The position numbers and the translations under genes are program-made. From NCBI RefSeq assembly GCF_947623445.1, contig NC_135248.1:3286977-3350976 (forward strand): a DNA stretch of 64,000 nucleotides, in the 5' to 3' direction. The DNA is from Clavelina lepadiformis. Taxonomy: Eukaryota; Chordata; Ascidiacea; Aplousobranchia; Clavelinidae. Shown piece after piece: positions 18,221-63,860 of this stretch (the first letter of the stretch is position 1; each line of letters begins with the position of its first letter). A model generated the notes under the pieces. That model ran no database searches. It saw only the letters and a list, made by a program, of their open reading frames with translations, and was not told where the DNA came from.

Positions 18221-18241
18221 TAAGACAGCACCGCCGAAATT

Positions 18242-19738
18242 ATGATAAACGGTCACCGATCAGCGGAAATAACGCTAGACAGAGGAGTAAGACAAGGCGA
18301 CCCACTAAGCTTTTTTTTATTTCTAATCGCAACCGAACCCTTGACTGAAAAACTGAGCAAAACCCAAGACATAAAAGGAATCCAATTAAGCGGTCGAAGA
18401 GAAATTAAGAATGTCAGCTATGCAGACGATGTGACTCTAACACTGAAAAATATCGCTTCAGTTGAAAAAGCCCTAGACCTCGTCGAAAAATTTAAACCCG
18501 CCTCGGGACTTAAATTAAACATCAAAAAAACCCAAGGCCTGATAATAAACGGCGACCCCCCAACACTCCTACTACCAGATATAAAATGGAACAAAACAAC
18601 CCTAAATCTACTCGGCACAACAATCGGAATAATAAATTTGAACCACCTCTGGCAAGAAACCCAAAAACAAGTCGAAAACAAAATAGAAGAAATTAAAAAA
18701 ACGTACGCCACGCTCGACGCTAAAGAAATTCTAATCAAATCGAAGCTTTTAGCAATTACCAACAACGCGGCGCAAACGTATCCTCCCCCAGTAAACAGAA
18801 TGCGATCAATAAACGAAAAAGTAAAAAATTACGCAGTAGGAAAATTCCCCCACGTAAATATAGACACCCTTCAACTCCCGAAACTCGAGGGCGGCCTAAA
18901 CCTCCCAAACTTCGAAATATACGCGGACTTAACGTATCTAAAATCCATCAGAAAATACTGCCTTGCCAGAGTTCTAAACGAGCCCCTTAGCGCCCACAAC
19001 AGCTATATCGAATACCAGATTGGCCACGTAATTCCCCGAACTTTAGAAGTTGTACACCTAAACAATCTCCCCCACACCGACATCCGATCCCCATATTATG
19101 AAAAAGTAATCGAAATTATTAAAAAATACGATCTGAAAAAAATTGACCTCATCTGCGGAAGTCTAAAAAAAACGTACAACAGAATAATAAGCAAACCAAG
19201 AACACAATCCAGAAATACCCAAACAGAACGCAAAAGATGGGAGAGAATACACTGCCCTGAACTCCCAAGCTATCTACGGACCTTTAACTTTAAACTCGAA
19301 AGCAACCTGCTACCTTTTAACACAGATATAAACCAATACGCACCAACAACAAAAAACAGCTGCCGTTTTTGTAGAATCGGACCAGATACCGCCTACCACT
19401 TATTTCACAAATGCCCCCAGACCAAGATACAATGGAAAAAAACAATAACGATCGCCGAAAAAACATTAAACCTAAAAATTAATAAAGAAAATGTCGAGAA
19501 GCTGTGCGCCCTCAGGCACGACATGGGACTCGAACTAAACACCGACAAAGTTCTCACCGTACTAATTACAACGATGAACCACCAAATATGGAAAACGAGA
19601 CTTAAATGCGTAATCGAGAACCAACAGTTCTCCTCAGAAAAACTGTCGAACGATATTTACAGAAGTTTTAAATACAGAATCTCCACCCTACGCAAAAATA
19701 ACCCAGACATTGTAAGAAACCTTACCACCCCCCTCTGA
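18242..19738 (+). CDS. LINE reverse transcriptase, C-terminal part of ORF2
   Basis: A 498-residue uninterrupted frame of a non-LTR retrotransposon. The first residues carry the finger/palm motif RGVRQGDPLSFFLF. The catalytic motif SYADDVTL follows near residues 58-65, then the thumb with SGLKLNIKKTQG. Near the C-terminus a cysteine-histidine knuckle, CRFCRIGPDTAYHLFHKC, resembles the zf-RVT motif of Tx1/L1-type elements. The endonuclease and early RT motifs are absent, so this copy cannot transpose alone. The ATG is simply the first in the frame, which stays open back to codon 18224. A long ORF without stops in a truncated copy argues for fairly recent insertion. The clade is uncertain. Confidence 0.85.
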   Translation: MINGHRSAEITLDRGVRQGDPLSFFLFLIATEPLTEKLSKTQDIKGIQLSGRREIKNVSYADDVTLTLKNIASVEKALDLVEKFKPASGLKLNIKKTQGLIINGDPPTLLLPDIKWNKTTLNLLGTTIGIINLNHLWQETQKQVENKIEEIKKTYATLDAKEILIKSKLLAITNNAAQTYPPPVNRMRSINEKVKNYAVGKFPHVNIDTLQLPKLEGGLNLPNFEIYADLTYLKSIRKYCLARVLNEPLSAHNSYIEYQIGHVIPRTLEVVHLNNLPHTDIRSPYYEKVIEIIKKYDLKKIDLICGSLKKTYNRIISKPRTQSRNTQTERKRWERIHCPELPSYLRTFNFKLESNLLPFNTDINQYAPTTKNSCRFCRIGPDTAYHLFHKCPQTKIQWKKTITIAEKTLNLKINKENVEKLCALRHDMGLELNTDKVLTVLITTMNHQIWKTRLKCVIENQQFSSEKLSNDIYRSFKYRISTLRKNNPDIVRNLTTPL

Positions 19739-27934: not shown

Positions 27935-30360
27935 CAGGGCTTTGGAGCCGGAGCCTGGAGCCCCGGAACCGTGCATTTTCAACGGAGCTGGAGCCGGAGC
28001 TCTACTTCAAATTCAAATGGAGCTGGAGTCAGTTGTTTGAAAAATAGCTCCGGCTTCGATGTATTTTATAAGATGCTATGTTACTAGCCTACTACCATTG
28101 ACTGAATTCACATAATTTAAAAGCAACCCTTCACAAAATTAGGAATTGTTGCCTCTTTGGCGCCACCTTTTCTAATTAACTCAGGTTGCTGGGGATTTGA
28201 CAGCAGAGAGCAGAGCAGTCACATGTTCATAGCTGCAAAGCTGCTACCGATGGTATTCACCACTGACTGACTGATTTGATAGTTTTCACTCAGGTATTAA
28301 AATTGACTTTAAATGGTGTAAGTTATGTTTTACAAGTACTGTAGTTCCTTTAGCTTAAATTGAAAAAAATTAAGAAATTTGTGCAGCCAAATTAGGATTA
28401 AAAATGTTTAATTTGGAACGTCACATAGAACGGCATCACCCTGATATTTTCAAAACTGTTCTTGAAGAGCAACCAAACAACAAAGAAGATATTCAAGACA
28501 GCAGCACAAGTAAACAACAAATGCTTTCACAATACTTCCACAGTGAAAAAATTAATGTGTCAATGACAAAAGAAAAATTGAAACGACATCTCATTCAATT
28601 GGTTGTTGATAATGGTGTAGCTCTTACACTCTTCTCTTCACCGGCATTTGTAGGTTTGCATGGAGAAATGGCTGAAAAACTTGGTGTTTCACTATCAAGT
28701 ATAAGAAATATGATTCTATGTGAAGCTGAGAAACAGAAAAAAAAATTAAAAGAGGATTTAAGAGATAAATTTTTGTTTTTGAAACTGGATGCATGCACAA
28801 AACACAGAATAAACTATTTTGCAGTAAATGCTCAGTTTGTTGACTCTAAAAATGAAGTGAGCATCTTTACATTGGCAGTAAAAGACACAGAGAGCCAACA
28901 CTCTAGCGATTTTATCAAAAGGATGGTTAAAGATGTTCTCAATGACTTTGACATATCCAAGCAACAAGTACTGGCAATAGTAACCGACAATGCTTCCAAC
29001 ATGACTCTAGCAGTTGAGAAATTGGCTGAAGACTGTGTTGTTGATGAAAATGAAGATGATGTTGAAGTAGAGGACATCCCAACTTTAGATGAAATAAATA
29101 CGTTGGCTTTTGCATACCATTCAGAGTTTAAAAACATGTTGCATATGCGATGTGCTGCCCATACATTGCAGCTAGCAATCCGTGATGGGTTAAAAGTGAG
29201 ACATGTTGCTTCACTGATCAGCAAAATTCGCCAGGTTGTGATAGCTGCAAGAACTCCGAAAATTGATGCAATTTTGAGGAAAAAAAACAATAAAGGGGCT
29301 ATTAATGACCAAGCTACAAGTTGGGTTAGTACATACCTTATGCTTGAACGCCTTCTTGAACTGAAACCTGTCTTGGTAGACATTGCACATCCAGATGTAT
29401 CACTGTCTGATGGTCAATGGAATGAAGTAAAACAGCTGGAAGAGTTGCTTCGCCATCCTTTCGTCACAACCAAAAAACTGCAGGCTTCCGATTTGACGCC
29501 AGGGTCATTTTTGAAAGAATGGAAAAAACTACTTTTCCAGTTTTCACAAATTCGTGGCAATTTGGCTGATGCCATAAGAACATCCATGGAGCGTCATGAG
29601 CAGGCGCTTCTCGCCAATGATGTGCTGCTGGCAGCAGTATATGTTGACCCGATGTACAGGGTAATATTGAATGATGAGCAACATTCAAAAGGGAAAGCTA
29701 CTTTACTCGAAATTGCTCTGTCTATGAAGGATCATGGAGAAAGTAGATTAGGTAAAAATCTGTCACAAGGTGGAAATCAAACCAACAGGGTAGAATCAGC
29801 AAACTTTTCACCCACCTCCGAAGATGAGGACTTTGAAAAAATTCGAGATCGGGAAGCAAAACGTCGCAAAATTGCAGCAGATTCTACACATGGAAGTGCA
29901 CATCAACGGTATAAAATGGACTTTACCAATGCATTATCCAATATCGAAAATATTGATAGGTCCTCAAAAGTGGCTGTCATGGATGCAATTTCCATGTACC
30001 CAGACATTCTGCAAAAAGTGGCGTACTCAGTCACAGCTTTGCCACCAACACAAGTGAGTGTGGAGAGACTTTTCTCCGCATTGCGCATCATTCGCTCAGA
30101 TTTAAGATGCTCGATGAAAGAAGACTTGACAGAGGCAATATTATTTCTTCGCATGAATGGTTTTTGAGCTTTGTGCAGAAATAAATGTTTTGTGTTCATT
30201 AATTGTGTTGTTTTGTTTGTGATTATTTTGAAACGCTAGATATTCCTAATTGAGCGTTCATCCTTAAAACTCAGTTTTTTACGTAATGTAGCCGGAGCAG
30301 TGGTATTAATGAGCGTTGGAGCTGGAGCAATTTATTATTTACGCCTGCTCCAAAGCCCTG
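27935..30360 (+). mobile_element. hAT DNA transposon, nearly intact
   Basis: The left end is CAGGGCTTTGGAGCCGGAGC; the right end read inward is CAGGGCTTTGGAGCAGGCGT, so the first 14 bases match exactly. The flanking octamers are CTTTTTCT (27927-27934) and CTTTTGTT (30361-30368), matching at 6 of 8 positions, as for an ageing 8-bp target duplication. GGAGC/GGAGCCGG motifs repeat just inside both ends. A single long transposase frame fills the interior, so the element may be autonomous or only recently disabled. Confidence 0.88.
28404..30167 (+). CDS. hAT family transposase
   Basis: A 587-residue intact frame. It begins with the second half of a BED zinc finger (FNLERHIERHHPD). The frame is open upstream of the ATG and a TTTGTGCAG acceptor precedes it, so a short 5' exon may supply the BED cysteines. 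The RNase H-like core shows LKLDACTKHRINYF for the first catalytic Asp and VLAIVTDNASNM for the second. An acidic insertion (DENEDDVEVED) follows. The C-terminal hAT dimerisation region is intact: PPTQVSVERLFSALRIIR ending EAILFLRMN. The protein excises and reinserts elements carrying the matching terminal repeats. I see no stops or frameshifts. Confidence 0.93.
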   Translation: MFNLERHIERHHPDIFKTVLEEQPNNKEDIQDSSTSKQQMLSQYFHSEKINVSMTKEKLKRHLIQLVVDNGVALTLFSSPAFVGLHGEMAEKLGVSLSSIRNMILCEAEKQKKKLKEDLRDKFLFLKLDACTKHRINYFAVNAQFVDSKNEVSIFTLAVKDTESQHSSDFIKRMVKDVLNDFDISKQQVLAIVTDNASNMTLAVEKLAEDCVVDENEDDVEVEDIPTLDEINTLAFAYHSEFKNMLHMRCAAHTLQLAIRDGLKVRHVASLISKIRQVVIAARTPKIDAILRKKNNKGAINDQATSWVSTYLMLERLLELKPVLVDIAHPDVSLSDGQWNEVKQLEELLRHPFVTTKKLQASDLTPGSFLKEWKKLLFQFSQIRGNLADAIRTSMERHEQALLANDVLLAAVYVDPMYRVILNDEQHSKGKATLLEIALSMKDHGESRLGKNLSQGGNQTNRVESANFSPTSEDEDFEKIRDREAKRRKIAADSTHGSAHQRYKMDFTNALSNIENIDRSSKVAVMDAISMYPDILQKVAYSVTALPPTQVSVERLFSALRIIRSDLRCSMKEDLTEAILFLRMNGF

Positions 30361-49232: not shown

Positions 49233-50021
49233 ATGTATACCTACCCTCCTACAATACATTTTTGCCGATTAAATTATTATTATTATTATATAAGATTAGA
49301 CTATGAATAAACTGCTGTAATCAACGATAGTATGTGAAGGTAAAGGATAAATTTAATAGCCAGCTTAGTAGATTAAACAAACATAACCTCGTCTAATGTA
49401 CTGTACGCAAGGGGAAAACTGCAGTTAAAGCTCTAGGTAACGTGTAATTCTCACGGTAGGTGGTGGAGAGAGGCAAACCAGGCATCGGGCGTTCCTCTGA
49501 AAATCTCGGTTTAACACTTTTATAATGTCTTTCAAGTGCTTTTTCATAAGTCCATAGTCGTCCGTGATAAATGCATGATGCACGTTATAAAATAAGTTAC
49601 TTATAAAGATTAGTCATTGTAGCCGTTTATAAGCTAGGCTACAGCGTAATTGGTATAGCATCTGAATCAAGTAGTTGTTTAGTTTGTATTACAATGAAGT
49701 CATATTTGTATTGAATGTAGATGATGCATAACTTTTCCATGAACAAAATGACGATTAACGATTAATACATTTTATAAGTTTTTCAACTTCTTATATGCTT
49801 AGGCTGACATGAAATCGATAATTTCTCCCAAGCTTGAAAGGGAAGTTAGGATGTCTGAAACAAAAAATAGCTTAAGCAAGAAATACGGCTGTATTTCAGA
49901 AAAAAACTCCTTGACCTAGAAAGTTTTCTAATGCTTCCATTGAGAAGTTTTAGAAAGTTATACAGCGGCTAAACAATATCTGTGGGTAAAAGGAAATTTT
50001 CTACAAAATTTAACCATTCCT

Positions 50022-53000
50022 TTAGGCTAGCATCTTACTATTGATGGTTGCTCGTGCCACAGCATGTTTTTTTAGCCTTCCACCGTTTCTTTTTAAAATG
50101 CTTGAAGCCTGATGTAGCTTTTTTTTCACCTGAGAGACCATTGCTGCAGCCTTCTCTATTTTTCTGGCAGCTATCGTAAGTTCTGTTCTGGCCGCATTTC
50201 CCATTCGTTGGAAAGTAGCTTGAAACGAGAATCAAAAAATAAAAAAGGAAATTTAGGCAAATCTACATATTTGAAGCGTTCATTATCCTTTTTATGCGTA
50301 ACACTTGTGATTTCTTTGCGCATCGGTAACTAATTTGTATTTTATAAATTGCTATGTCATTGTTTTCGATTTTCCATACATGCAGATAAAAAGCAACTTT
50401 ATTTCGTTTTTGTTAAACTAACAAACCTCAAACAAAATTGAAGAAAACTCAATTTTTAGTGACCAAGTTATTTGCAAGCAAACTTTTACTAACACAATTT
50501 TACTTCCAAATATCTTACGGGGTTGTGGTGTTGTCATTAGCAGTTGGCTTGATTGCACTCGTTGGACTGGTTCAACATAGCCAGAACAATTCTACAAAAT
50601 AACATTAAAAAAAGTTCAAATATTTTCTAAAAAACGGAGAACGAAATTCATCCAGAAACTAGCCGACAAAAATCTCAGTCCTACCACAGAGCTTCACCCA
50701 GTCATAAACTTGCAAAATCGGGCAATTTTAATTGTAGCTTATGCTCTAAACTAGGGCTTCTCAAACTATGGGTCGCGACCCCAGTTTGGAGTCGTAAAAT
50801 GTAATTTTGGGTTCGTAAAACAATTCAATTTTAATAAAATGAATTGTTTTTGTTAATTTTTTATTGGCTTTGCTGTTTCCATTACGTGGTTCTTCTATTA
50901 CTGTAGGCTACAGCTACTGTATTTTGGTGGATTATATGCATTTATAGGATTTTGCCAGAGACAAAAACGCCACTTGAGGTTCTTAATTGAACGTTTATTG
51001 TTTTAATATCTTTAACGTGTAGTCTACCCATCAAGGGGTCGTATAACTTAGAAAATTTCTTTTCTAAAATGAGGTCACAGAACTAAAAAGTTTGAGAAGC
51101 TCTGCTCTAAACGGAACCATAAAAGTACAATTCAGATACATACCGATACAGGAAAACGTGAACATCTGAGCGAACGTGGCCATTGAAACCCAAGTCTATT
51201 CATTAATCGTTCACAACCATTTTGTGCATTTTGGCAAAGACTCCTGCAAGTAAATATAAGCTACACATAGTTTTCGTTTTTAGTGTTTCCGTTTCTGAGT
51301 TTTGATGTGGTTATAAAGCTATTACGCCTATATGCAAAAAGTGTTGATATTAAAACAGATATGTTTTAATTAAAATAAGTATTTTCATTGTAACAATAAC
51401 GGAAGTATCTCTGCTACTGCACTTATATTTATAAAAACACAGGGAAGGAAAACTAAAAATCGTATGATCAAAAATAACCTTCAGAGTGCCAACGTATTAC
51501 TTGTTTTTCATTTTACTAAAAATTATAAGAAATACTTTGCTTTTCTATTCGGTTTTATACACTTCGTTAATATTTCAAAAACGTTTTGTTTAACTTATTG
51601 TTAAGTGGAACACTTTCTAAAGTAAACATACATGTCTTTTTAAGTTGAATTATCAAAAGATAAACGTTTTCAACGTGACAATCACGCTAGCTTTATTGGC
51701 CTGTACCTGCAAGGAGTCGCTGTTTGCGCTTCAGAATCGCACTGTGGAAAGTAAGTCCGGCATAAAAATTCCTCAAGAGATGGACTACATTTTATCTATA
51801 TAGAAAGTTTCTGATTTCAATGAAGTACTTTATAGGTTAATAATTAGGATTTTTAAGAAAAAATCCACTTAAGACAGGATTCGAAAAAATGAACAGAACA
51901 GTTGAGCTACCAATCAACATACTATTACAAGTGGATAGAATTGATTAACTTCCAAGCCTGCGTCTTCTTCATTTTCATGACTGAGAATATTTGGAAAGTA
52001 CGTTTGGTTGTAGTCCATTCTAGCGCACACTGGGCTTCGGAAGGTAACACATGTTCCTATGAGAAAATCGAGAAAGTTAATGTTGATATTAACACCGTCT
52101 CACATATATTCAAGTTTTATAGTAGGCTACACCGCGATGGGTGATGTAAGCCTATATAATTTCTCAAAAACTTTACAGGTAGTTTTAGTGTATACAGCAG
52201 AGTCGAAGTTTGTAATATTAACGTATGCCACATGGCAGCCGTCTATCGAACAAATGCAAAAGAGAAAGGTGCGAAAAAATGCAATTTTTATTTCGTTTCT
52301 GTTCAACTAAGAAATCCCATTAAAGATTGAAAACAAAAAAAATCTCAATAAGTTTTCAGTTATAATCGTCAAAAGATGTAGACAGTAGACACACAGTCAT
52401 TTTAAACCCATATGCGAAATGGGAATCTTTACAGAATCAAAAAATCAATCAAAAAATAAAAAAGGAAATTTAGGCAATTCTATACATACTGTATTTAATG
52501 CGTTCATTAGCCTTTTTATGCGTAAAACTTGTGATTTCTTTGCGCATCGGTAACTAATTTGTATTTTATAAATTGCTATGTCATTGTTTTCGATTTTCCA
52601 TACATGCAGATAAAAAGCAACTTTATTTCGTTTTTGTTAAACTAGCAAACCTCAATCTAAATGGAAGAAAACGTAAATTTTAGTGAACAAGTTATTTGCA
52701 AGCAAACTTTTACTAACACAATTTTACTTCCAAATATCTTACGGGGTTGTGGTGTTGTCGTTAGCAGTTGGCTTGATTGCACTCGTTGGACTGGTTCAAC
52801 ATAGCCAGAACAATTCTACAAAATAACATTAAAAAAAGTTCAAATATTTTCTAAAAAACTGAGAACGAAATTCATCCAGAAACTAACCGACGAGAATCTC
52901 AGTCCTACCACAGAGCTTCACCCAGTCATAAACTTGCAAAATCGGACAATTTTAATTGTAGCTTATGCTCTAAACCAGGGCTTTTCAAACTGGTTCCACG

Positions 53001-56000
53001 ACATATGACCGCGGGAAAATGACCGCGAACAAACTCACCGGGAACAACTGAACGTGACGTAAATTGACCGCGATCAAACTGACTGTGATGTAAATTGACC
53101 GCGAACAAACTAACCGGGAACAGACTTACCGGAATGAAAATTGACCGGGAGGTAAATTGACCGTGCAAGTGCTGAATTATTGTGTTTAAGTTGATGGTAG
53201 TATATGATATGTAAAGTAAATATTTGTTTGTAACTATTTCCTTTGTTTTTAACAAAATTTTTTTTTTTATTTCAATACACATTGAAACATTTATTGAAAT
53301 AAACAGAAATATTTCCGGAAATACGAGAAATACGAGTAACAACATTAAAAGAAGTTCACTGCAAAACACATATGACACTACATAATAAGGGCACTAAAAT
53401 TTACACAAACTGTTATTTGACAAATCAGTCAACCTTGACTGCAATACACATACTTAATTGGCTGAGATTAAAGCTGATGCGCGACTAGATAGTGAATTAG
53501 AATTTTGACCTTCTGACGGCCAATTTGTCGCCGGTTAATTTGATCGCCGGCCAATTTATCGACGGTTAATTTGATCGCCGGCCAATTTGTTGCCGGTCAG
53601 TTGTCCACTACCAGTTGTCGCCGGTGATTTTGTTCACGGTCACTTCTCGTGATCCCTTTCAAACTATGGGTCGCGACCCCAGTTTGGAGTTGCAAAATGT
53701 AATTTTGGGTTCGTAAAACAATTCAATTTTAATAAGTTGAATTGTTTTTGTTATTTTTTTATTGGCTTTGCTGTTTCCATTACGCGGTTCTTCTATTACT
53801 GCAGGCTACAGCTACTGTATTTTGGTGGATTTTATGCATTTATATGATTTTGCCAGAGACAAAAACACCACCTGAGGCTCTTAATTGAACGTTTATTGTT
53901 TTAATATCTTTAACGTGTAGTCTACCCATCAAGGGGTCGCGTAGAAAATTTCTTTTCTAAAATGAGGTCGCAGAACAAAAAAGTTTGAGAAGCTCTGCTC
54001 TAAAGTCTAAACAGAATAAAAATAAAACGCAGACACATACCGATACAGGAAAACGTGAACATCTGAGCGAACGTGGCCATTGAAACCCAAAATTATTCAT
54101 GATTCGTTCACAACCATTTTGTGCATTTTGGCAAAGACTCCTGCAAGTAAATATAAGCTACACATAGTTTTCGTTTTTAGCGTATCTGTGTTTTGATGTG
54201 ATTGTAAAGCTATTACGCCTATATGCAAAAAGTGTTGATACTAAAACAGATATGTTTTAATTAAAATAAGTATTTTCATTGTAACAATAACGGAGGTATC
54301 TCTGCTGCTACACTTATATTTGTAATAACACAGGCAAGGAAAACTAAAAATCGTATGATCAAAAATAACCTTCAGAGTGCCAACGTATTACTTGTTTTTC
54401 ATTTTACTAAAAATTATAAGAAATACTTTGCTTTTCTATTCGGTTTTATACACTTCGTTAATATTTCAAAAACGTTTTGTTTAACTTATTGTTAAGTGGA
54501 ACACTTTCTAAAGTAAACATACATGTCTTTTTAAGTTGAATTATCAAAAGATAAACGTTTTCAACGTGACAATCACGCTAGCTTTATTGGCCTGTACCTG
54601 CAAGGAGTCGCTGTTTGCGCTTCAGAATCGCACTGTGGAAAGTAAGTCCGGCATAAAAATTCCTCAAGAGATGGACTACATTTTATCTATATAGAAAGTT
54701 TCTGATTTCAATGAAGTACTTTATAGGTTAATAATTAGGATTTTTAAGAAGAAATCCACTTAAGACAGGATTCGAAAAAATGAACAAAACAGTTGAGCTG
54801 CCAAGCAACATACCTTTATAAGTGGATAGAATTGATTAATTTCCAAGCCTGCATCTTCTTCATTTTCATGACCGAATATATTTGGAAAGTACGTTTGGTT
54901 GTAGTCCATTCTAGCGCACATTGGGCTTCGGAAGGTAACACATGTTCCTATGAGAAAATCGAGAAGGTTAATATTGGTATTAACACCATCTTACATATAA
55001 TCAAGTTTTATAGTAGGCTACACCGATGGGTGATGTAGGCCTATATAATTTCTCAAAAACTTTACAGGTAGTTTTAGTGTATTCAGCGGAGTCGAAGTTT
55101 GTAATATTAACGTATGCCACATGGCAGCCGTCTATCGAACAAATGCAAAAGAGAAAGGTGCGAAAAAATGCAATTTTTATTTCGTTTCTGTTCAACTAAG
55201 AAATCCCATTAAAGATTGAAAAAAAAAGATATTTCAATAAGTTTTCATTTATAATCGTCAAAAGATGTAAGCACGCGGTCATTTTAAACCCTATGCGGAA
55301 TGGGAATCTTTACAGAATTTTGTTTTAAAAATATATTTACTTGATTGTGGTGTTGTCATTGATAGTTGGCTTGGTTCCACTCGTTGAGTTATTTCTACAT
55401 GGCCGGAACAATCCTATAAAATAATATACAAGTTTTCTAAAAATTAACGAAAAAAATTCAACAAGAAATAAGTCGGCGAGAACTTCAGTCTTCAGAGCAT
55501 AAGCTATACATGAACTCAGCTTACATATAACCAACAATTTGTGATCTTAATACACCTAAAAGTGATATTATTTGTAAAAACAAGCATTGATCAATACCGT
55601 TACTGGAAAAAGCGAGCACTTCAGTGCAGGCGGCCATTGAAACCCAAATAAATTCATCAGCTGACTGCATTCATTTCTGGCATGTTGGCAAAGGCTCCTA
55701 TAAGCATGTGTGAAATAAGTTTATACAAAACAAAGGCTAAATTTCATCAATATCAATATCTCTACCTCACTAAGTTACAAGTGAAAAACAGAAAGAAAAC
55801 GAACATTTTACTTCTGTCTTTATTTGTTTTGAATTTTGTTTTTCTTGTAAATATTTAACCTTATTTATGAGTTAGACGTGTGTTGGTGAAAGTTACTCGT
55901 TACATATGTATTTTGCGTATTTATAACTGTATATATGTTTATTGCGTATGTAATATAAGCTTGATCAGACACTGAGCGGTTTCAACGTAGTAACCTGAGA

Positions 56001-58937
56001 TTTCAAGAGTAGTCTGAGAAGTTACCGCAGCTTTCATCCTATGTTTGTGTTACAAAATTTAGCCATGCATTTTTTTAATTATTTTGATTTTGGTGTTATA
56101 TCTACATTTATACGATTTACTCTCTGCCGCCACCCATGTCTGCTGAAAGCAATTGATCGATCATATGGTCACTCATCATTATCATGGTCACTCATTAATC
56201 ATCATATCACTGATCGATCCTACATGGCTGAAAGAGAAACTTTGTCGCAATGGAAAATCGCAATGCGAAGTAAAATGTTCCGAACTTGACAACATTACTT
56301 ATAACTGGATATTCCGTTCAATATCGTACAATTTATATGCGGCGCACATAACTGAGTTTGTATGTCAACATGTCGAAGTCCGAAAATACTGCGACATGTA
56401 TTTCTCTTTAAGTGTAAACCGTAAACTCGATCGTTGACGTAATTTATATATCACCTACAAGTAAAAACCTGACAAATAGGGTTGTAAACGCATTGCCATA
56501 TGGAACACAGCTTTGGGATAACTTAAGGCAATTTAACACTTTCAAATTAATTTGAATTAGCTCGACCAGTTCCTTCTTACTCATAAAACTGAAAGTTAGC
56601 GCAACATAACATAGATATAGGCTGTACCTGCAAGGAGTTATTCCTTGTCCGGAATCACACTCAGGAAAGAAAGTTCTACAGAGGAATCCTAGCAGCGGCG
56701 ACATGCGGCTTAACTATTATGTAACTTATTGTGAATTGTTTGAAAAAAAATGTGTTTTTATAAAAGTACTTTATGCTACAACTAACCTTGCTTAAAAGAC
56801 AACCATTTCAGATGAGCTACGAACGAAATGCTTCAACAAACCATAATCTATGACTTGATCAACAGACCTTTAACAGTGGGCGGAATTGATTAATTGCCAA
56901 ATTTGCTTCTTCTTTGTTTTGATGACCCAAAATGTTTGGAAAGTACGTTTGGTTATAGCCTATTCTAGCGCACATTGGGATCCAAAAGCCAACACATGTT
57001 TCTATGAACAAAATGAAAGTGGAAGTTTTGTCTAAGGCTTCGAAAATTACAACAATATGTAAAACTTGACTTAGTCTGCAATTGATAAAGATCATCACAG
57101 AAATGGTGTGAAAAATATTTGTTTAAAGCCTGACGAACTAATGCTGCATGAATAAGTGCAAAATCTGTGACAAGGTTTGTTAATTGTAGTAGCCTAAGGT
57201 TACTTACTTGCTGGGGTTGTTTTTTCCGCTGCCTCGTGACTTTTGCAATCCTGCAATTTAAATTTTAAAAGTGATATTTTTACATGGAATAAATGCTGCA
57301 TGGGAAGAAATCTTTTATCATAGTCAAATCTTAATAATAGTAACTTGATAAAGCAATTTTGCGTATGACTAATATAGCTTGTACCGAATATAGGTTGCAG
57401 ATTTGGTGATAGATTTACTTAAGCGTAACCTAATTAATTATTAAAGTTAGTTTTGAAGCCTATGACAAATAGAGAAGACGTCCTCATAAGAACATTACAG
57501 CAATGGTGTCATGTAAATTAGTGGCGCAGCGTGGATTTTGGCATCCATAAGCCGAAGCCAAAGTAGAAGCCTATGTCATGTTCAATCGATGCTAGTTTTA
57601 AAAACAGATATGGTAGCTAAAAATGATAGTAAATAAAAAGGAATAATTTTGATGTAAAAGCGCAAAAGGAGAATACGGAAATAGGCTATATTTAAACAAA
57701 TGATGCGACTGTTTTTATACTGACAGGGACTACGCACGGGACCAATTCTGTTGAAGTAAAGAAAGACCTTACAAAATTTGTTAAAAGGTTTTTATATTTC
57801 ATTATTCGTAACAACTGTCCGCCCTAGGCGGTTCGCACCATACACACCTCTCTGCACCACTGATGCAAACGATTTGTGAATCATAACAAGCCGTTTTATA
57901 ACTGCTGTTATTTTTGATGGTAGTTGCTGTTTAACGATGGATTTTAAGTGAAACGAGTTTAATGAATTTGGATTTCACCACCGAATGTCATATAATTCAT
58001 AGTATCATAATACCCCCATCCCCTGCCCGTAGAAAAGTGGGGATTACCGGAAACTGAGAACACTCAAGTGAAGAAGGCCATGTGAAACCGAAACTGGTGA
58101 GAACGTTGTTGCATCCATTTTTTGAATCCAGGCAAAGTTGTCTACAAAAAAAATTAAACACCATTGCTTATTATTATTATGTAGTTGACAGCGTATTTAA
58201 GCGCTGTAGCTAAAGTTTAGAATTGCCAACTACCAAAGCTTTTTTGGGAAATTCTTTTGCTAAAAAGTCTTAAAAAAGTTAAAATCACTAATTTGTCATT
58301 TGATAATACCGGCAAGGGCGTAAATCGGGATTTTGCTCGGCGGTGCACTCAGGAAAATGCAATTGACAGAGAACTTTTTTGAGGGACAGACTGCAATTTA
58401 TCTGAACAAATAAGAATAATGATAGTTAAACCTCATATAGGCGTTTTCATTTCATATGACAAGCTCATAACTTATTCTATTTATTTCATATGCCTACTCT
58501 GATGCTGCACTGCATCAACGGCAAAGCAATATTTTACATTTATTTTTTCAACCATATTTAAAATTAATAGATAACCTAACTATTTAACTAACCCTTAAAA
58601 GCGGATAGAATTGATTGATGTTCATATTCGCTTCAACAGCGTTTGCATGACCCAAAACGTTTGGAAAAATTGCGGCATTGTATCCCAAGTCCGCACAGAT
58701 GCTTCTTTCTATTTCAACGCAGTTATCTATTATGGCGAAATGATATAAGTCACTGCCAAATACTGCATAACTGTAAGCTGAAAGAATTAAATACACTTGC
58801 CTATATGGTTAAAAACTTTGTTAACAAGGTAGGCTATTGCAATACCAACAAAACTTACTCGCTGCGAAAGTTTCTTCAAATAGCACGGAAAATAGATGTA
58901 GTAAAACTATCGTAAAACTTAGTAAGTACGCTTGCAT
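50022..58937 (-). CDS. Secreted protein with four tandem Frizzled-type cysteine-rich domains
   Basis: Minus-strand exons: 58937-58859; CRD1 58777-58593, 58401-58310, 58141-58048, about 57250-57209; CRD2 57001-56868, 56713-56628, 55697-55598, 55413-55341; CRD3 54947-54814, 54686-54598, 54140-54041, 52815-52743; CRD4 52056-51923, 51795-51707, 51243-51144, 50591-50519; tail 50218-50022. Exon 1 encodes a signal peptide ([16 protein letters not shown]...). Each CRD follows the Fz pattern: C-x7-C then GYNxTxFPNxLGH, CS...LC, FPxC, PCRxLC, GC, GFxWPxxLxC and a last NC or DC. Fz domains bind Wnt acyl chains. No membrane helix is seen, so the product of about 624 residues should be secreted, ending in a Lys/Ala-rich basic tail. 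Every cassette starts and ends in phase 1. The small CRD1 exon near 57.2 kb is uncertain by one base. No homologue of this architecture comes to mind. Confidence 0.88.
50230..52446. repeat. Tandem duplication, copy 1 (CRD4 cassette)
   Basis: A 2.2-kb unit starting AATCAAAAAATAAAAAAGG that contains the four CRD4 exons, their introns and one hAT MITE. It is repeated at 52447-55318 with very high identity in exons and introns alike. The left boundary lies 12 bases upstream (in gene orientation) of the tail exon, which is therefore single-copy. Confidence 0.92.
50752..51104. mobile_element. hAT MITE in CRD4 intron (copy 1)
   Basis: The left end is TAGGGCTTCTCAAAC, with the usual first C mutated to T; the right end read inward is CAGAGCTTCTCAAAC. 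The target duplication CTCTAAAC is perfect (50744-50751 and 51105-51112). The GGGTCGCGACCCC string near the left end is typical of animal hAT MITEs. Confidence 0.93.
52976..53997. mobile_element. hAT MITE copy 2, interrupted by a nested element
   Basis: This is the same MITE as at 50752-51104, duplicated with the cassette. The left end here keeps the intact CAGGGCTT. The target duplication is CTCTAAAC on the left (52968-52975) and CTCTAAAG on the right (53998-54005). The MITE is split at 52992-53656. Confidence 0.92.
52992..53656. mobile_element. Nested 665-bp element with 9-bp target duplication (Mutator-like?)
   Basis: The insertion is delimited by comparison with the empty site in MITE copy 1. 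The target duplication TTTCAAACT is at 52983-52991 and 53657-53665. The ends are GGTTCCACGACATATGACCG and, read inward, GGGATCACGAGAAGTGACCG, an imperfect terminal inverted repeat. Both flanks of the interior are filled with short repeats such as TTGACCGCGAACAAACT on the left and CGCCGGCCAATTTG on the right. The 9-bp duplication and GG start suggest a MULE-type MITE; the class is inference. Confidence 0.8.
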
Positions 58938-62603: not shown

Positions 62604-62727
62604 TATATCATCCAAACCAACTGTTCTTTGTTTTTGCATCAAAAATCAAACATAGGCTTGATATTTTCTTAAAATGGAAAATTCTGTATCTGAATAACTA
62701 AGTGTCATTTTTTTAAAAGTATAAAAT

Positions 62728-63860
62728 ATGATGCAGCTCTTAAGTCAACGTTTACTAAGATTGACAATCCGGCTGTCCTCAGAAAAACAGACATTGTCAA
62801 AACACTTGCCTTGTTTGATTCGACAACCTCTGAAAACATTTCTTCCTGAGCCCATACAACTCAATAAAACCTATTTTTCACAAACAACTTTCATAAGATC
62901 AAATGATGTTGCACAAAATCGCCACCGTGACAGCATATGTCGGTATTTGGTAACTTTACCACCCAAAAGATCACGCAACATGCCAAAGGGAAGTCCGATT
63001 AGGTGGGAAATTGTGATGGTTCTGGTCGCGGTTGGCACTGTATTGATCCTATTAATGAAACATTACAAGAGCAATAAAGAACAGAAGCTTGACATGGATA
63101 CGATTCGCTCATATGGTAAGCCACTGCTTGGTGGTGACTTTGAACTCGTAAACCAAGATGGGGAACCTACAGGCAACAAAGATTTCCTTGGGAAATGGAT
63201 TTTGATATACTTTGGTTTCACACATTGTCCCGATATTTGTCCAGAGGAATTGGAGAAAATGGGGAATGTAGTTGACATTGTTAATAGGGAAGATTTTATT
63301 CCTGATTTGCTTCCCGTGTTTATCAGCATTGACCCTGAAAGAGACACTACGGAAGCCGTGAAAACATACATTTCTGTTAGTTTTTAGCACTAAAATGTTA
63401 TGTAATCAGTTATGTGATTGGAAACTAGTAAAACAATGAACTTTAACTCTTTTTAGTTTTAGTTTTTAAGAGCCTAAATTTGTTTTTATAAAGATTTAGT
63501 TTTAAGGTTTAAATACTATTAATATAGCATTTATGATTTTACATAATAAAGCAAATCAGTCCAATGCCATGGACTTCAACCATTTCATTTATATAACAGG
63601 AATTTCATCCTGACATGGTTGGACTGACAGGAACAAGAGAACAGGTGGACCAAGCATCAAGAGCCTTTCGAGTCTACTACTCTGCCGGTCCAAAGGACAA
63701 TGACGATGATTACTTGGTAGATCATACTGTAATCATGTATCTTGTTGATGATAAGGGCGAGTTTTGTGAGTATTTCGGTCAAACTAAATCTGCTGGTGAA
63801 ATTGCTTCTACTATAACAGCAACTATGGTCAAGTCATTGGGTGTCAATGCTATGAAATAA
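62728..63860 (+). CDS. SCO1: SCO1 mitochondrial copper chaperone for cytochrome c oxidase
   Basis: Two exons, 62728-63375 and 63600-63860, join in phase 0 to 302 residues, the normal SCO1 length. The first 60 residues are rich in Arg, Leu and Ser and fit a mitochondrial targeting sequence. A membrane helix lies near residues 93-110 ([18 protein letters not shown]). The thioredoxin-fold domain faces the intermembrane space. The copper ligands are all present: Cys167 and Cys171 in [10 protein letters not shown] and His258 in [14 protein letters not shown]1 hands copper to the CuA site of COX2. The donor is GTTAGT and the acceptor is ATATAACAG. AATAAA occurs at 63893-63898. Invertebrates usually have one SCO gene, so SCO1 is preferred over SCO2. 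Confidence 0.97.

Follow-up and report, generated by a model that had tools for sequence, protein, structure and literature searches.

The secreted protein with four Frizzled-type cysteine-rich domains (CRDs) for which the literature search returned functional data is sFRP-1 of the sea urchin Strongylocentrotus purpuratus, and it was the only such multi-CRD secreted protein found; a parallel literature search for sFRP or frizzled in ascidians including Clavelina returned no paper. As described in the available excerpts of Khadka et al. 2018 (PMC5778778, citing Illies et al. 2002), sea-urchin sFRP-1 bears a signal sequence and four CRDs in tandem, the third and fourth of which are separated by an Ig domain; it lacks a netrin domain, and a relationship of its CRDs to those of sFRP3/4 is stated. 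According to the same excerpts it is required for antagonising Fzl5/8-JNK signalling in embryos; 15 novel CRD genes are reported for the sea urchin and at least four related genes for a sea star; the sFRP family proper combines one CRD with a netrin domain; and the CRD is, in the view of Pei and Grishin as cited there, a mobile evolutionary unit (PMC5778778). The four-CRD gene of the ascidian Clavelina lepadiformis described here is best read as encoding a putative lineage-specific, multivalent Wnt-binding antagonist of this already known, little-studied kind. A scattered set of secreted multi-CRD proteins thereby gains a tunicate member, and its CRD3/CRD4 pair offers a recent duplication step for study.

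The window analysed, a stretch of 64,000 nucleotides (C9:3286977–3350976) to which all positions refer, contains the gene on its minus strand. It comprises 18–19 exons whose boundaries are AG/GT and whose phases fit throughout, in which a signal-peptide exon is followed by four A-B-C-D cassettes and a tail exon, and the phases 1-0-2-0-1 recur in each of the four cassettes. The first spliced model gave a single open frame of 618 aa. The signal-peptide exon (58859–58937) has an ATG, encodes a hydrophobic N-terminus and ends in a phase-1 GT donor. CRD1 is encoded by A1 (58593–58777), B1 (58310–58401), C1 (58048–58141) and D1 (57208–57250, which supplies the last cysteine and a linker); CRD2 by A2 (56868–57001), B2 (56628–56713), C2 (55598–55697) and the linker exon D2 (55341–55413); CRD3 by A3 (54814–54947), B3 (54598–54686), C3 (54041–54140) and the linker exon D3 (52743–52815); and CRD4 by A4 (51923–52056), B4 (51707–51795), C4 (51144–51243) and the linker exon D4 (50519–50591). 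The basic tail exon follows at 50039–50218. Exons B1, C1, D1, A2, D2, A3, B3, D3, A4, B4 and D4 are given by both the spliced frame and an NCBI model.

That model was reached through the best database match of the spliced protein (among the best 120 of 331 rows), which is named 'uncharacterized protein LOC143470150 isoform X2 [Clavelina lepadiformis]'. The form 'isoform X2' is the naming style of NCBI predicted models; LOC143470150 is an NCBI prediction, and the gene model is known here from genomic sequence. Joining 19 segments of the window rebuilds isoform X2 (P0001, 614 aa) letter for letter, with the same start. The two models differ at few points. The C-exon donors of CRD2, CRD3 and CRD4 lie 6 nt further on in the NCBI model than in the first model (which had 55604, 54047 and 51150), and in isoform X2 splicing to an acceptor at 58708 leaves CRD1 without its first cysteine, while the acceptor at 58777 with the remaining NCBI exons gives a protein of 637 aa. 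The initial annotation had placed the gene between 58937 and 50022; exons do occupy that span, but the NCBI coding sequence runs beyond it to 49799, through a donor at 50039 that joins the tail exon to a last coding exon at 49799–49854 carrying its own TAA. The TAA at 50022 is thus intronic in the NCBI model and would be used only if the tail intron is retained, the unspliced exon continuing to it. The gene model is very probably correct, and the prediction of a single chain with four Fz domains, its exons joined in phase from signal peptide to tail, is borne out by the continuous spliced frame with its AG/GT boundaries and matching phases, by four Pfam Fz stretches and by the separate NCBI prediction.

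A Pfam scan at E 0.01 detected these four tandem Fz stretches and no other domain (whole protein E 1.9e-113), and each cassette alone passes the Pfam curated cut-off for Fz (E 9.5e-32 to 1.1e-27). The claim that all four CRDs are complete survives in part: cassettes 1, 3 and 4 have ten cysteines each, but cassette 2 has nine, an Arg encoded by B2 aligning with its third cysteine position, and CRD1 of isoform X2 is without its first. Across the four cassettes this makes 39 of the 40 cysteines expected. A base error at the CRD2 Arg is unlikely because the published assembly has a QV of 67.4, if the window belongs to it (PMC10884593, available excerpts). Ten cysteines per CRD are stated for sFRP-1, and cassette 2 departs from that number, which is not known to define the sFRP-1 kind. 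Mean hydropathy in 19-residue windows peaks at 0.97 for windows starting after residue 40, against 1.87 at the N-terminus, so that the annotated lack of a transmembrane segment holds and the protein, judged by hydropathy only, appears to be secreted behind its signal peptide. The tail is basic, as had been proposed, with 14 K/R and 4 D/E within 78 residues. A search with the tail region, in which 100 candidates of suitable length were considered, returned only the Clavelina protein itself, and Pfam detected no domain in it at E 0.01; at E ≤1 there was only Sec8_N (0.085), far below the cut-off.

Comparison with known proteins follows from this domain content. Frizzled-1/2/7 receptors have one CRD and seven transmembrane helices, unlike the Clavelina protein, and corin is a membrane-anchored protease with two Fz domains. 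In the Clavelina protein the Pfam scan gave no match to the Frizzled membrane domain (nor is there a hydrophobic stretch), to a protease domain or to a netrin domain; a Frizzled receptor, a netrin-type sFRP and corin are all ruled out by its Fz-only content. Likeness to them extends to secretion and a CRD in the case of the sFRPs, to the possession of more than one Fz domain in the case of corin, and, for the Frizzled-1/2/7 receptors, to CRD sequence and fold and to one intron place common with the Clavelina FZD1/2/7 gene. Sea-urchin sFRP-1, by its description, shares the signal sequence, the four tandem CRDs and the lack of a netrin domain or transmembrane segment. It is set apart, again by description, by its Ig domain and sFRP3/4-related CRDs, whereas in the Clavelina protein Pfam detects no Ig domain between CRD3 and CRD4 (Fz being the only domain at E 0.01), the CRDs are nearest to FZD7/FZD2 and the tail is without relatives; the missing Ig domain speaks against orthology with sFRP-1. 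The uncharacterised teleost proteins of ~650 aa from Amphiprion (P0022) and Thunnus (P0028) also have four CRDs, a similar length and no strongly hydrophobic internal stretch, but their CRD1 is degenerate and long-branched, their C-terminal part is different and their CRDs lie elsewhere in the tree. Orthology with them is likewise not borne out, the Clavelina CRDs grouping together, without position-wise pairing with those of the fish. The C-terminal part of P0028 gave a sub-threshold EF-hand (E 0.055), and that of P0022 none.

Compared with PDB sequences, CRD3 has FZD7 and FZD2 as its top matches (best E 1.6e-40; 54 sequences at E ≤0.001), with sFRP3, sizzled and Smoothened ranking below them. 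Residues common with FZD7 number 43/104 in CRD1, the most divergent of the four, 53/103 in CRD2, 58/104 in CRD3 and 59/104 in CRD4. The motif QFxPL is retained in all four CRDs (as QFRPL in CRD2), as is the Phe two residues past the position of FZD8 Tyr125; both are what we take to be Wnt-lipid groove positions. Tyr125 of FZD8 is itself given as a groove residue in the available text of PMC11341715, and its position is occupied by Phe in CRD1, CRD2 and CRD3 and by Leu in CRD4, being thus aromatic in three of four; named groove residues were not found in the accessible part of PMC4068752. AlphaFold2 applied to isoform X2 with 52 sequences gave a mean pLDDT of 80.7 and a pTM of 0.37, with CRD blocks mostly at pLDDT 80–97, linkers mostly below 50 and the tail as two helices of lower confidence; an earlier prediction with 10 sequences had been poor (mean pLDDT 51). 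The predicted arrangement is one of beads on a string, with well-defined modules and loose linkers. The five best Foldseek matches of the X2 model are all FZD7/FZD2 CRDs (TM by target 0.77–0.90). The FZD1/2/7 type of the CRDs is indicated by the PDB sequence comparison, for CRD3 only, and by the comparison of folds, with a tree placement that is poorly resolved.

The sequences of CRD3 and CRD4 mark them as a recent tandem duplicate. They are 91–92% identical in protein and ~94–95% in DNA including introns, their B exons are identical, and they differ at 12 of 129 codons, ten of these changes altering the residue. The ratio dN/dS is 1.1 by NG86 and YN00, 2.4 by LWL85 and 0.94 on the CRD alone, with dN 0.040–0.045 and dS from 0.017 (LWL85) to 0.048 (NG86, CRD alone), and the changes are too few to tell relaxed from diversifying selection. 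Divergence in five non-coding stretches is 0.026–0.061, close to that of the coding sequence; purifying selection has thus left no visible trace since the duplication. Between older cassettes dN/dS is 0.23 (CRD2 vs CRD3) and 0.24 (CRD1 vs CRD2), both values being rough at dS ≥1; CRD1 vs CRD3 and CRD1 vs CRD4 were left out. These low ratios suggest an older constraint. The intron between C3 and D3 contains a ~650-bp repeat (52990–53640) that is missing from the paralogous C4–D4 intron. Close to each of its ends a 15/31-bp unit is repeated in tandem, the two arrays being roughly opposite in orientation, and the element is matched by 95 pieces of the genome, many of them approximately full length at 85–98% (40 of 559 candidates scored); it is probably a non-coding mobile element.

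The initial annotation had implied that four CRDs on one soluble protein are rare, and this must be given up, with sea-urchin sFRP-1 in print (PMC5778778) and proteins of three to nine CRDs present in several phyla. Two protein searches of the kind that it had called for listed 183 distinct proteins (the best 120 of 331 and the best 120 of 228 rows, the searches being drawn towards such proteins and providing no census), 61 of which have three or more nearly complete CRDs and 42 four or more; the highest number among the matches listed is nine, in Antedon. Names are available for 50 of the 61, of which 45, by eye count, bear the label uncharacterized, hypothetical or unnamed. The named rows include many teleosts, two crinoids, two sea stars, a hemichordate, a spiny lobster, a nemertean and an anemone, and no tunicate besides Clavelina occurs among the 50 named rows listed (11 of the 61 being without a name). 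The hemichordate protein (P0053) has a clear membrane segment, and therefore not all multi-CRD proteins are soluble. Elsewhere in the C. lepadiformis genome no second CRD array was seen in searches giving 21 and 23 matches, with the best candidates scored: all cassette matches fall at this locus and eight other Fz places were read, those at C1:23230943, C5:10925374, C5:10938054 and C8:16453230 being left out of the reading.

Trees were built from 81 and 45 CRDs, keeping only those that cover most of the profile and drawing, besides Clavelina, on 17 and 8 of the proteins with two or more CRDs, hand-picked for taxon spread. In both, the four CRDs of Clavelina fall into a single group (87/90 and 90/70, neither starred). 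A phase-0 intron follows QFYPLVK in the Clavelina FZD1/2/7 gene and agrees in place and phase with the A/B intron of the cassettes; it is the sole CRD intron common to the two, and the FZD1/2/7 gene has none at PCR|SLC. From such sequence evidence an origin of the CRDs in FZD1/2/7 is likely but not proven, and the array probably expanded within the tunicate lineage, starting out with an FZD1/2/7-like CRD; the CRD3/CRD4 duplication would have come last. A grouping of CRD4 with the fish CRD4, named after the first tree was seen, is rejected (p-AU 0.0026), a result also expected from the recent CRD3/CRD4 duplication or from concerted change. A single origin of the multi-CRD rows other than Brachyhypopomus is not rejected (p-AU 0.082, 35 rows vs 10), and independent origin is therefore supported at best for Brachyhypopomus. 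The protein of Brachyhypopomus gauderio (P0008, 468 aa) has three near-alike CRDs lying among vertebrate FZD1/2/7 rows (93/99 and 85/89), and appears to stem from a Frizzled gene that recently acquired a multi-CRD form. The two CRDs of a 414-aa protein from the sea slug Elysia marginata (P0057) adjoin those of Clavelina (85/77 and 98/91), a placement that may reflect long-branch pull. It is a tentative idea, more doubtful than not, that, as the trees suggest, an FZD1/2/7-type CRD has repeatedly and independently given rise to soluble multi-CRD arrays in a tunicate, an electric fish, echinoderms, a lobster and others, that such multivalent Frizzled decoys contribute, by convergence, a mostly unexplored tier to the control of Wnt outside the cell, and that the Clavelina array is young and still growing by tandem duplication. 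If the arrays are independent inventions, whether evolution commonly arrives at avid soluble Frizzled decoys can be put to the test.

A multivalent Wnt or Frizzled binder is plausible because the CRDs are nearest to those of FZD7/FZD2, most groove positions are kept and a four-CRD Wnt antagonist exists in the sea urchin. On balance we lean slightly towards the Clavelina protein acting as a soluble, multivalent Wnt sink or antagonist. Each intact CRD would accommodate a Wnt lipid within its groove; four linked CRDs would hold Wnts with avidity, away from Frizzled receptors; and the basic, predicted helical tail would tie the protein to matrix proteoglycans, the net outcome being a local sink or antagonist, the role suggested for sea-urchin sFRP-1. 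Several features speak against a Wnt trap: CRD2 lacks its third cysteine, CRD1 of isoform X2 its first, the Tyr125 position is Leu in CRD4, the QFxPL motif reads QFRPL in CRD2, CRD1 is rather divergent, and CRD3 and CRD4 carry no sign of purifying selection. They bear also on a rather improbable alternative, in which the array does not serve Wnt binding at all and is instead a structural or matrix protein, or is partly decaying, with CRDs used as stable modules. The replacement of Cys3 in CRD2 by Arg, the CRD1 cysteine lost in X2, the approximately neutral divergence of CRD3 and CRD4 and the relative-less tail would all suit such a protein, but it sits poorly with the retention of almost all expected cysteines across the four cassettes, with the low dN/dS between older cassettes and with the groove positions kept.

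It is likewise unlikely that a Wnt-binding array would act as a multivalent carrier or clustering factor, aiding Wnt spread or gathering Frizzled receptors and so raising signalling. Dimerisation of FZD CRDs on a Wnt lipid is reported in the available text of PMC11341715, and four linked CRDs could favour it; another secreted CRD protein of the sea urchin, sFRP-1/5, is needed at low levels to stimulate Fzl5/8-JNK signalling, according to the excerpts of PMC5778778. Sequence does not separate a carrier from a sink, but the only four-CRD secreted protein found with functional data is an antagonist. The number of CRDs could itself be questioned: the CRD3/CRD4 duplicate might be an assembly artefact, an unpurged haplotype, and the true protein have three CRDs, which we regard as very unlikely. 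Tunicate genomes are sometimes very heterozygous, and the similarity of the two copies would suit this explanation. So would the nine haplotypic duplications removed in curation of the published C. lepadiformis assembly (210.1 Mb, 102 scaffolds), but that assembly, if it is the source of the window, was made from HiFi reads at 117-fold coverage and cleaned with purge_dups, in addition to its high QV (PMC10884593, available excerpts); moreover, the copies follow one another within a single frame, and only one of them has the repeat insertion, in the C3–D3 intron. That the cassettes are separate single-CRD genes is scarcely credible and is contradicted by the phase-1 hand-over from every linker exon to the next A exon and by the NCBI model, which joins all cassettes.

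The window also contains 13 open reading frames of at least 130 aa, three of which were scanned against Pfam. The clearest neighbouring host gene, at 62725–63387 (+), has a SCO1/SenC domain (Pfam 4e-28). A 597-aa frame at 28374–30167 (+), with a DUF659 match just below cut-off and a hAT dimerisation domain, is transposase-like, and a 504-aa frame at 18224–19738 (+) with a reverse-transcriptase domain resembles a LINE-like remnant.
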